In this document: one piece after another, positions 19,795 to 24,260 of the stretch | Numbering within the stretch: the stretch's first letter is position 1 | Layout: the number at the start of each line of letters is the position of its first letter | Source: Akkermansiaceae bacterium | GTDB taxonomy: Bacteria; Verrucomicrobiota; Verrucomicrobiia; Verrucomicrobiales; Akkermansiaceae | Reading direction: 5' to 3' | Length of the DNA: 33,349 bases | NCBI GenBank assembly: GCA_017857425.1 | Contig: JAFMDE010000006.1 | Coordinates: 1-33,349 of the forward strand | The notes under the pieces: model-generated | Told to the model about the DNA's origin: nothing | The model's input: only the letters and a program-made list of their open reading frames with translations | Database searches by the model: none | Made by a program: the position numbers and the translations under genes

Positions 19795-20160
19795 TCATGG
19801 TCGGACTTGAGCTAGGTCAGGGGTCCTGGGGGTTTCGTTCATTCCTCGTGAAGAGAAGGGGGGGATTTTTTTTATGGAGCTTGCTGGAGTTAATACTAGC
19901 TGTGATTGCTCACGGGCTAAGCCCTCGATAATAAAATCCCAAGTAGTAATCTGGGCGAACTTGGCCTCCAAACTGTTAATCGAGCCCTCGTGTTCACTAA
20001 TACGCTGCTCGGCTTTGCGGATATCTTTCACCACCTCAACCTGGCTATTTTTTAACCATATGTGCATAAAACTACCCCCCATCAATGCTGGCGCCGCAAA
20101 GCCAAGCAACACCATCTCAACGACGGAAAATCTTCGATCTTTATTACGGTGTTTATTCAT
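19795..20160 (-). CDS. FtsL-like bitopic division protein (assignment mainly by synteny)
   Basis: Short protein between rsmH and ftsI: basic N-terminus, one TM (VVEMVLLGFAAPALMGGSFMHIWL), coiled-coil-like segment. ATG at 20160 (MNKHRNKDRRFS) avoids overlap with rsmH. Confidence 0.6.
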   Translation of the reverse strand: MNKHRNKDRRFSVVEMVLLGFAAPALMGGSFMHIWLKNSQVEVVKDIRKAEQRISEHEGSINSLEAKFAQITTWDFIIEGLAREQSQLVLTPASSIKKIPPFSSRGMNETPRTPDLAQVRP

Positions 20161-20173
20161 AGATTGACGGCTT

Positions 20174-21124
20174 TTATCTTTTTTCGACCACTCGCAGTTT
20201 TGCACTGCGGGATCTTTTATTACCTTGAACCTCCTCCTCACTTGCCGTGATAGGGCGACGGGTAATCATCTGGTATTGATAATCTGGATTCTCCCTAGGC
20301 TCAGGCCATTCTTTGCGATCGATGTGAGACTCTGAGGCATGCCTGAAAAACTGCTTCACGATGCGATCTTCAAGGCTATGGAAAGTGATCACCAGCAAAC
20401 GCCCGCCTGGGTTAAGCAGCTTGGGTGCGTTATCTAAAAAGGTGCGTAGCGCTCCGAGCTCATCATTGACAGCAATGCGAAGCGCCTGAAAAACACGTGT
20501 CGCTGGGTGTATTTTACCAGTGGGTCCCTTGGGACGCGGTTTGATCACAGAGATGAAATCAGCAAGATCAGTGGTGGTCGTAAATGGCTTGTCTTGGCGT
20601 CGTTCCACAATACGGCGAGCTATTTTGCTGCCGGCGCGTTCTTCACCATATTCGTAAAAAATAGTTCTTAGCTCTTCCTCCGGCAAATGATTCACCAAGT
20701 CAGCAGCGGTATCACCTTGAGATCGATCCATCCTCATGTCCAAAGGACCTTCCTTGCCGAAGGAGAATCCACGATCAGCCTCATCAAGCTGCCAAGAAGA
20801 AACCCCGATATCGATGAGAATTCCATCCACCTTATCGACTCCAATGCTCGCTAAAAGTTCGGGCAAATGTGAAAAATTACCTTTGAGAGGAGTGAAGCTC
20901 GATGGGTATTGCCCCAGCCGCTTTCCTGCAAACTCGTGCGCCTGTTCGTCCTGGTCCACTCCTATCACACGAGCTCCGGCATTGAGCATCGCCTCCGTGT
21001 GACCGCCACCTCCAAGTGTTGCATCGACAATGAGCTTCCCCTCGTTGGGAATCATATATTTCATCACCTCATTCAGAAGAACGGGTTGATGGTAAGGGGT
21101 ATTAGTCGAGTTTTCTGATTCCAT
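20174..21124 (-). CDS. rsmH: 16S rRNA (cytosine1402-N4)-methyltransferase
   Basis: YHQPVLLNEVMKYM, VDATLGGGGHTEAML, DGILIDIGVSSWQLDEADRGFSF, GGRLLVITFHSLEDRIVKQFF. Start MESENSTNTPYHQP (21124) preferred, with an AGGGAG-type RBS upstream; the track's extension to 21232 runs through the structured leader. Confidence 0.94.
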   Translation of the reverse strand: MESENSTNTPYHQPVLLNEVMKYMIPNEGKLIVDATLGGGGHTEAMLNAGARVIGVDQDEQAHEFAGKRLGQYPSSFTPLKGNFSHLPELLASIGVDKVDGILIDIGVSSWQLDEADRGFSFGKEGPLDMRMDRSQGDTAADLVNHLPEEELRTIFYEYGEERAGSKIARRIVERRQDKPFTTTTDLADFISVIKPRPKGPTGKIHPATRVFQALRIAVNDELGALRTFLDNAPKLLNPGGRLLVITFHSLEDRIVKQFFRHASESHIDRKEWPEPRENPDYQYQMITRRPITASEEEVQGNKRSRSAKLRVVEKR

Positions 21125-21126
21125 AC

Positions 21127-21165
21127 ACTGCTCCCTGTATTCGTGAGGAAGCGAAGCCGAGCAGT
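21127..21165 (-). promoter_or_regulatory. Candidate helix sequestering the rsmH ribosome-binding region
   Basis: 7-bp perfect complement ACTGCTC (21127-21133) / GAGCAGT (21159-21165). On the minus-strand transcript the 3' arm overlaps the AGGGAG RBS just before the AUG at 21124. Confidence 0.45.
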
Positions 21166-21220
21166 CGGGGTGGGACTCCCTCCAAGTTGTCCCATTCCCG
21201 ACCGCTACAAACTTTGCTTC
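21148..21220 (-). ncRNA. Structured leader element copy 1 (hairpin with shared loop)
   Basis: Plus strand GTCGGG-G-TGGGAC [TCCCTCCAAGTT] GTCCCA-TT-CCCGAC (21164-21202); near-perfect outer arms GAAGCGAAG (21148-21156) / CTTTGCTTC (21212-21220). Confidence 0.55.
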
Positions 21221-21316
21221 ATTAAACAACATGAATTCGTAAGGGTAGACTGCATGCTATCATCGACGTGTATTCCAAGAAAAAATGTGGCTGTGACAAG
21301 ACGCGCCTGAGAGAAA

Positions 21317-21378
21317 CTGCACCGAGTAAGAGACGGTGCAGAGGTGAGGCTCCCTCCAAGTTACCTCAACCTCTGCAC
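21317..21378 (-). ncRNA. Structured leader element copy 2 with overlapping alternative terminator-like hairpin
   Basis: Plus strand GTGCAGAGG-TGAGG [C TCCCTCCAAGTT A] CCTCA-A-CCTCTGCAC (21336-21378). Overlapping perfect 8-bp dyad CTGCACCG (21317-21324) / CGGTGCAG (21334-21341), followed on the minus strand by TTTCTCTC. Confidence 0.55.
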
Positions 21379-21460
21379 GCGTGTCTCCATGCTGGGGGAA
21401 CAGCATTGTTGTCATTTCTGTATCAGCGTATTGCACAGGAAAAATTGTTGTCTGTATGGT

Positions 21461-21925
21461 TTAGAAGAATCCGAACTCATCGTTTGCATCAGCGATGATG
21501 CTAGCCTCATGGGCTGCGCGGAGTTTGCGGTGGTTTTCCTCATTTAAAATTTCGATAAAGTCGCCACGACCGACGAGGACAAGACCCTCTCCGGCCTCCA
21601 ACCCTGGATGATCAAGTAGTGCCTTAGGGATGCTGAGCTTGCCCTGCTCATTCACATGGGCCTTGGTGCAGCGTTCAAAAATGATACCGATGATGCTTCG
21701 CTTCTGAGCTGGTGAACGCTCACTGTCGTTAACCTCCTGTTGCATTTTCTCGAACTCGGTCTCTGTAAGAACACGCAATGTCGGAAAACCCTCGTTGGAA
21801 GAAACCATCAGCCGAAGCACGGTGTTGACTACCTCTGGACGCCAATCACTAGGGATGGACACACGACATTTCGTGTCCATCTTGTAGGGGAAGTAACCCC
21901 CCATGCTGTGATTCGTAGTGCTCAT
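21461..21925 (-). CDS. mraZ: Transcriptional regulator MraZ
   Basis: Duplicated MraZ/SpoVT-AbrB-like half-domains (YFPYKMDTKCRVSIPSDWRPE; THVNEQGKLSIPKALLDHPGL-like segment KAHVNEQGKLSIPKALLDH), first gene of the dcw run. ATG at 21925 (MSTTNHSMGG) preferred. Confidence 0.9.
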   Translation of the reverse strand: MSTTNHSMGGYFPYKMDTKCRVSIPSDWRPEVVNTVLRLMVSSNEGFPTLRVLTETEFEKMQQEVNDSERSPAQKRSIIGIIFERCTKAHVNEQGKLSIPKALLDHPGLEAGEGLVLVGRGDFIEILNEENHRKLRAAHEASIIADANDEFGFF

Positions 21926-21939
21926 AAATACACGCGATG

Positions 21940-21954
21940 TCCCTCGCGGACCCA
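21940..21954 (-). promoter_or_regulatory. Possible MraZ-binding repeat
   Basis: Minus strand TGGGT-CCGCG-AGGGA: two (T/A)GGGN pentamers spaced by 5 nt, just downstream of the candidate -10. Confidence 0.35.
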
Positions 21955-21955
21955 T

Positions 21956-23330: not shown

Positions 23331-24260
23331 TCATGCCACCAAGAAAATTGGTATCGGAACCAACAGAGCAACATCAGCAAGCACCCTTAGCGAGTTCATC
23401 GAAAAATGTTCCCGATAATGATTGATCGCTTGCAAAACCGCGGCGGAAACCATCACCGAATAAAAAAACGGCTTCGTGTATTGATCCGCAAACATCGAGG
23501 CAAACAACAGCGAGCCGCCCGCTAAAATGATCAACCCTAATGTTAAGTTCTGCTCGTGTGCGCTTGCCACCTCCTCATCCTGTGTGGCACTCGCCCTCTC
23601 CCATAAGTCAATAGCGGTAATATTGAGCATGCACAAAAGCCCAAACACCCATATTTCACGGCTTTCGTAAAAAATAACAATGATCGTGCTGATCACCATC
23701 TTCAAAAAATTCCACCCCGCATCCAACGCCCCCGTATGATTAAAGGCGTAAACAATGTCATTCAAGTCCGTCACCAATAACGAGGCATTTGCGGCATTGA
23801 CGGGAATCGCTATCCCCATGGCAAAAACCATCCCCGCCAGCAGATTTTTAACATAGGGGATCTTTCCTGTCTGAAAGGATGCCAACAAAAAATAAAACAC
23901 ACACAGCACTGCTGCCACCAGACCCGCAGACAACATCGAGCGGGACAAAACAAACAAGGATTCATAGATGCAAACGGCAGCGACAATAACTACCCCCAGA
24001 AGCATTGGCCAGCGCCAGCGCCAGTGGAAAATGTGACGGGGCGAAGATTGACGTTGTTCAGGCCGAAGCCAGCTATCAATCAGCCGGTCTAATACATAAA
24101 CACACCAAATAGCACCCGGCAGCACAAACCATGCTGCGGTTTGCATGTAATCTACTCTCAATGACCGAACCAGCATCCACATCCAGGCCAAACCAACAAG
24201 CGGAGCATCCAAGCTCAGCAAATTGGGCAGCAGCCATAGTGGGTTACGGCGGTTATTCAT
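23331..24260 (-). CDS. Polytopic membrane protein, possibly UbiA-prenyltransferase-like
   Basis: 309 aa with many TM segments; Asp-containing motifs YVLDRLIDSW and NITAIDLWERASATQDEE loosely resemble UbiA-superfamily Asp motifs. Confidence 0.5.
   Translation of the reverse strand: MNNRRNPLWLLPNLLSLDAPLVGLAWMWMLVRSLRVDYMQTAAWFVLPGAIWCVYVLDRLIDSWLRPEQRQSSPRHIFHWRWRWPMLLGVVIVAAVCIYESLFVLSRSMLSAGLVAAVLCVFYFLLASFQTGKIPYVKNLLAGMVFAMGIAIPVNAANASLLVTDLNDIVYAFNHTGALDAGWNFLKMVISTIIVIFYESREIWVFGLLCMLNITAIDLWERASATQDEEVASAHEQNLTLGLIILAGGSLLFASMFADQYTKPFFYSVMVSAAVLQAINHYREHFSMNSLRVLADVALLVPIPIFLVA

Follow-up and report, generated by a model that had tools for sequence, protein, structure and literature searches.

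A covarying, duplicated hairpin element between mraZ and rsmH in an Akkermansiaceae genus as a candidate control element of the dcw operon

Cell-division and wall enzymes are supplied at a level set by the dcw operon, whose control in Verrucomicrobiota has, to our knowledge, been little studied. In leaders regulated by CsrA/RsmA, two hairpins with GGA loops lie near the start codon, an arrangement that fits a binder with two sites. The mraW RNA motif (RF01746) is a structured RNA with a predicted action in cis, listed for Actinomycetales (Weinberg et al. 2010, PMC2864571). UpsM, a long RNA leader of the Rhodobacter dcw cluster for which a regulatory role has been proposed, is located ahead of mraZ and includes a Rho-independent terminator (PMC5089854). 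Palindromic sequences of another kind are the Rickettsia palindromic elements, which occur as in-frame palindromes inside a conserved protein gene and have been fused into many different genes (PMC2229807), and the REPs with their RAYT transposases, short high-copy bacterial palindromes that are sometimes intragenic (PMC3733652).

The window considered here is a whole stretch of 33,349 nucleotides of an Akkermansiaceae bacterium (assembly GCA_017857425.1, contig JAFMDE010000006.1). The gene order on its minus strand is mraZ, spacer, rsmH, and the mraZ-rsmH region contains two hairpins on the sense strand with an identical 12-nt loop, AACUUGGAGGGA. The open-licence papers searched contain no description of this hairpin element, and none of them links Akkermansia to mraZ and rsmH. 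An element that covaries, is confined to one locus and sits where rsmH starts offers a concrete point of entry into dcw control.

Layout of the mraZ-rsmH region

The features of the region are listed below.

21461..21955, minus strand: mraZ, first gene of the dcw cluster, 5' of the element in the transcript (Pfam MraZ, 4.5e-09)
21420..21439, minus strand: short conserved element CCTGTGCAATACGCTGATAC, which opens the upstream unit (unit alignment)
21407..21413, minus strand: GACAACA, predicted partner of the rsmH start codon region (RNAalifold, columns 86-92 with 275-281)
21389..21406, minus strand: small hairpin AUGCUG-UUCCCC-CAGCAU preceding hairpin 2 (consensus fold, columns 93-110; compensatory changes across species)
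21260..21436, minus strand: predicted ORF of 58 codons with a GTG start, containing hairpin 2 (conserved in all six two-hairpin genomes)
21334..21379, minus strand: hairpin 2, upstream unit, loop at 21351-21362 (covariance model, 64.4 bits, and covariation)
21260..21276, minus strand: second copy of the short element, GGAATACACGTCGATGA, which opens the rsmH-proximal unit (unit alignment)
21225..21232, minus strand: probable rsmH start AUGUUGUU, predicted partner of GACAACA (frame analysis and consensus fold)
21160..21205, minus strand: hairpin 1, rsmH-proximal unit, in the extended rsmH frame, loop at 21177-21188 (covariance model, 61.1 bits)
20174..21232, minus strand: rsmH with a probable N-terminal extension (Pfam Methyltransf_5, 4e-112; core from 21124, extension frame open)

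Two ORFs near the dcw genes, 19795-20241 and 23331-24260, are without a Pfam match; the former occupies the position expected for ftsL, between rsmH and a penicillin-binding protein.

An initial annotation, made from the sequence alone, had described a pair of hairpins with the same loop in this spacer, and both were recovered where it had placed them, in transcript sense on the minus strand. Its suggestion that the spacer folds stably was borne out: the 336 nt fold at -117 kcal/mol (z = -3.9), a stability that none of 100 shuffles equalled. Both stems are long and nearly perfect with small bulges, and their lengths by themselves are not exceptional against 300 dinucleotide shuffles. The hairpin pair has 13 loop bases in common, and eight or more were found in none of those 300 shuffles. 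Only three exact copies of the loop exist in the genome, two in the hairpins described here and one without a comparable hairpin, apparently within a coding gene. REPs are marked at one end by a GTAG or CGTC tag; in most species GTAG precedes hairpin 1, and it is absent before hairpin 2.

The spacer is probably not a simple leader. The 336-nt gap reported between mraZ and rsmH holds if rsmH starts at 21124, but the rsmH frame is open upstream as far as the ATG at 21232, and the 58-codon ORF fills much of the remainder. Since the frame is open from this ATG, hairpin 1 is most likely within the rsmH coding sequence. What stands of the proposed leader is a structured spacer, probably not a purely untranslated one. 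The extended frame opens with ATG and a leucine codon in nine of the 11 members of the genus (g1) with data, and similar rsmH starts are found in most other Akkermansiaceae genera; in this family the annotated rsmH starts may be placed downstream of the true ones. The rsmH-proximal hairpin keeps its phase with rsmH in all six two-hairpin genomes, whereas the upstream hairpin has phases of 0, 0, 1, 0, 2 and 1. The ORF around the latter retains its GTG and is open across the hairpin in each of the six. Between G000 and G005, synonymous divergence is 0.16 in the rsmH extension versus 0.76 in the core, and nonsynonymous divergence is the same in both (0.087 and 0.089), so that the nucleotide sequence is held more than the peptide. 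G004 (L019), another member of the genus, has its sole intact hairpin within a short ORF whose frame differs from that of the rsmH core; this frame break is either a genuine split or an assembly error.

Covariation, locus restriction and joint decay in genus g1

The region upstream of rsmH was compared in about 90 related genomes. Genus g1 is represented here by 14 genomes; at least four carry a metagenome-assembled label, and three have an absent or broken rsmH region. Two hairpins, spaced by 149-178 nt, are present in six genomes (G000, G005, G006, G010, G012 and G013) and one intact hairpin in G004. For four of these seven, public records contain an identical locus under the label Akkermansiaceae. 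An alignment of 12 hairpins from seven species has no internal gaps. Within it ACTTGGAGGGAG is invariant and the stems are variable, with changes on both sides in 10 of 18 pairs and 95% of cells paired. The covariation score is 0.51; shuffled controls score 0.26 and slid ones no higher than 0.13. The initial annotation had argued for covariation from the two copies within this locus. The covariation is real, but the copies appear to represent a tandem duplication, so that its demonstration comes from the 12 hairpins of seven species and not from these two by themselves.

A covariance model search of 260 Akkermansiaceae genomes gave 13 matches, all in sense orientation and all in the mraZ-rsmH region of g1; 12 of these had served to build the model, so that the informative part is the absence of any other match, no hit being obtained outside this locus in the 260 genomes. 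In the window's own genome both matches are at the mraZ-rsmH locus. The alternative originally offered, a dispersed hairpin-repeat family, is ruled out by these own-genome and 260-genome searches. Two further candidates were discarded: the search pattern, not the hairpin, was matched by chance in one Thorarchaeota contig (L124), and a TTGGAGGGAG site pair in G031, away from rsmH, seems coincidental.

Between G000 and G005, the closest two-hairpin species, the spacer is 93.4% identical, compared with 84.2% for mraZ and 75.9% for rsmH. In two pairs of genomes in which one member has lost a unit, spacer identity is 79-82%, roughly the level of the genes. A spacer kept more strictly than the flanking genes suggests that the element is probably involved in control of the cell-division operon. 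On the sense strand, base-paired positions of the 12 hairpins include 24 G-U cells versus three A-C, an excess partly due to the loop-closing pair (U-G in eight of the 12). This bias favours a structure acting in the transcript. The element may instead act as single-stranded sense DNA. The covariation characteristic of structured cis-regulatory RNA is found together with a fixed gene association. Taken with the spacer identity, these sequence comparisons uphold the earlier proposal of a selected structure, one peculiar to this position in the dcw operon; it has no match among the Rfam families.

Both units begin with a short element of ACACGCTGATA type and end with the hairpin. Moreover, the upstream unit of G000 and G005 retains ATGCTGTT, which is the form of the rsmH start in two other genera, g7 and g13. 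This repeated layout, together with ATGCTGTT in the upstream unit, can be read as the trace of an old tandem duplication that copied the region where rsmH starts. In an rsmH tree whose backbone is not resolved, three sister pairs are recovered: G008/G010 (94/92), G011/G013 (92/88) and G001+G002/G006 (94/92). In each of them one side has the hairpin pair and the other a shorter spacer with a leftover hairpin that has lost the loop. Loss of one unit and decay of the leftover hairpin in three sister lineages suggests that the hairpins function together as a pair. Failure of the entire element would produce the same pattern. G004, whose single hairpin is still intact, is an exception to this joint decay.

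Hairpin arrays in other Akkermansiaceae genera

Arrays at the same place in other genera are real at the level of sequence; they were examined less deeply than g1. In g7 (L078, L082, L083 and L086) and g13 (L038, L084, L087 and L096), the mraZ-rsmH spacer contains about 7 to 17 hairpins. Two hairpins alternate with a period of about 105 nt, with the loop CUCGGGACAG and one of UGGCUGGUU type; the two alternating invariant loops are CTCGGGACAG and TGGCTGGTT. Spacings are of many lengths, nearly all multiples of three, and the copies share a single phase with rsmH in 34 of 35 and 40 of 40 cases. The first hairpin type, with the CUCGGGACAG loop, shows covariation, and clusters of this loop occur at this locus alone.

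The arrangement differs in other genera. In g11 (L093, L101, L102 and L103), two copies of another hairpin (GAGCAAGGGACGGCTC) are separated by 135-159 nt, with the second copy placed where rsmH starts, and exact matches to GAGCAAGGGACGGCUC are restricted to this locus in the two genomes checked. In g12 (L060 and L073), repeated units opened by GGATAACTGGAA end at the rsmH start; their hairpins, up to four in L060, have a different loop holding CTGCCTTGC. The g3 spacer (L056:913-1650; also L063 and L072) codes for about 210 residues in frame with rsmH. This product has a weak, below-cutoff match to an IS200-like transposase family (PF01797, E 0.004), including NHVHV.

It is possible, although we regard it as rather doubtful, that the rsmH start hosts locus-restricted hairpin arrays throughout the Akkermansiaceae. 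These arrays, of two to about 17 hairpins and mostly in-frame N-terminal extensions of RsmH, would have lineage-fixed loops co-evolving with a trans-acting factor and stems that covary freely. If true, the coding sequence of an rRNA methyltransferase gene would house a rapidly evolving system of control by RNA. RNA structure overlapping with coding sequence, the joint decay and the exchange of loops between genera provide a natural experiment in the co-evolution of an RNA element and its partner.

Possible function and comparison with known systems

We tentatively propose, as a reading that may quite possibly be correct, that the hairpins form a cis-acting mRNA element controlling translation of rsmH through a trans-acting factor that recognises the paired loops. 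The structured region of the mRNA would act in cis on rsmH, possibly also on the following dcw genes. Each duplicated unit would present the identical 12-nt loop on one long hairpin, and both loops would constitute a paired binding site for one putative factor, for which a two-site RNA-binding protein is the likeliest candidate. The probable rsmH start codon is positioned between the two hairpins, and binding would be expected to alter ribosome access to it. The protein that first comes to mind for paired GGA loops is CsrA, but PF02599 is absent from 24 genomes (this one and 23 relatives) and was detected in control genomes. Draft genomes may miss one gene, but this is hardly likely to explain the absence in all 24. 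In the consensus fold, GACAACA (21407-21413) is paired to UGUUGUU, located at what is probably the start codon of rsmH. Both sides are nearly invariant, so that this pairing has no support from covariation, and by our own estimate a 7-bp match is not rare in a spacer of this length. A long-range pairing across the start codon may be hypothesised to act as a switch.

The long structured spacer ahead of biosynthetic genes had initially suggested a metabolite riboswitch or transcription attenuator of the dcw operon, an explanation that now appears barely credible. No match to any Rfam family was obtained in the window at gathering score and only chance-level matches in 21100-21490 at E up to 10, riboswitch families being among those without a match. 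Moreover, no terminator hairpin with a U run is found on the minus strand, the transcribed strand of the spacer, the two simple hairpins are separate with no conserved junction, and the rsmH frame crosses hairpin 1. No sigma-70 promoter was found between the units. It has also to be considered that the GGAGG of the loop could serve as a Shine-Dalgarno-like standby site for the 30S subunit beside the rsmH start codon, requiring no protein factor. The loop is invariant, and GGAGG complements the CCUCC at the 16S rRNA 3' end of order-level relatives (L126 and L127). However, the single 16S sequence found in g1 has CATCTCC there and the hairpin loops of g7, g13 and g11 at the same locus are without GGAGG, which makes this reading very unlikely. 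Mimicry of 16S rRNA by the loop was rejected, with matches of at most 8-mers for g1; a single 11-mer that the g11 loop shares with 16S rRNA near position 488 is probably due to chance.

The long, near-perfect stems with small bulges, located between two genes of the same operon, could alternatively be mRNA processing or stability sites, such as RNase III substrates, which split mraZ off from the remainder of the operon transcript and sense no signal. This seems distinctly unlikely: a stem-cutting enzyme needs no invariant 12-nt loop, losing the first hairpin would not be expected to entail decay of the second, and hairpin 1 is within the rsmH frame, where cleavage would harm the message. Unlikely, in our judgement, is a selfish or inert palindromic repeat, of the kind of the Rickettsia elements or a REP, trapped at the locus, its copies homogenised by mutual recombination. 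Tandem copies with identical loops, the frame shared with rsmH, the large arrays at the same site in other genera and the weak transposase-like match in the g3 spacer are all consistent with such an origin, but there are no copies elsewhere in 260 genomes, the stems differ between units yet remain paired, and conservation of the spacer exceeds that of the genes.

For the paired-loop control element that we favour, the described systems offer partial likenesses. The mraW motif is named for the same gene (mraW = rsmH), but RF01746 has no match in the window at gathering score or in 21100-21490 at E up to 10. In contrast to UpsM, the element is located behind mraZ and no terminator was found. Paired GGA-loop hairpins near a start codon are shared with CsrA/RsmA leaders, although the loop here does not contain the A(N)GGA core and CsrA was not found. 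Unlike the high-copy REPs, it is present in two copies at one locus. The resemblance to Rickettsia palindromic elements lies in the phase of hairpin 1 with rsmH in all six two-hairpin genomes, according to the predicted reading; the element described here differs from them in that it occurs only at the mraZ-rsmH region and in that its stems covary.
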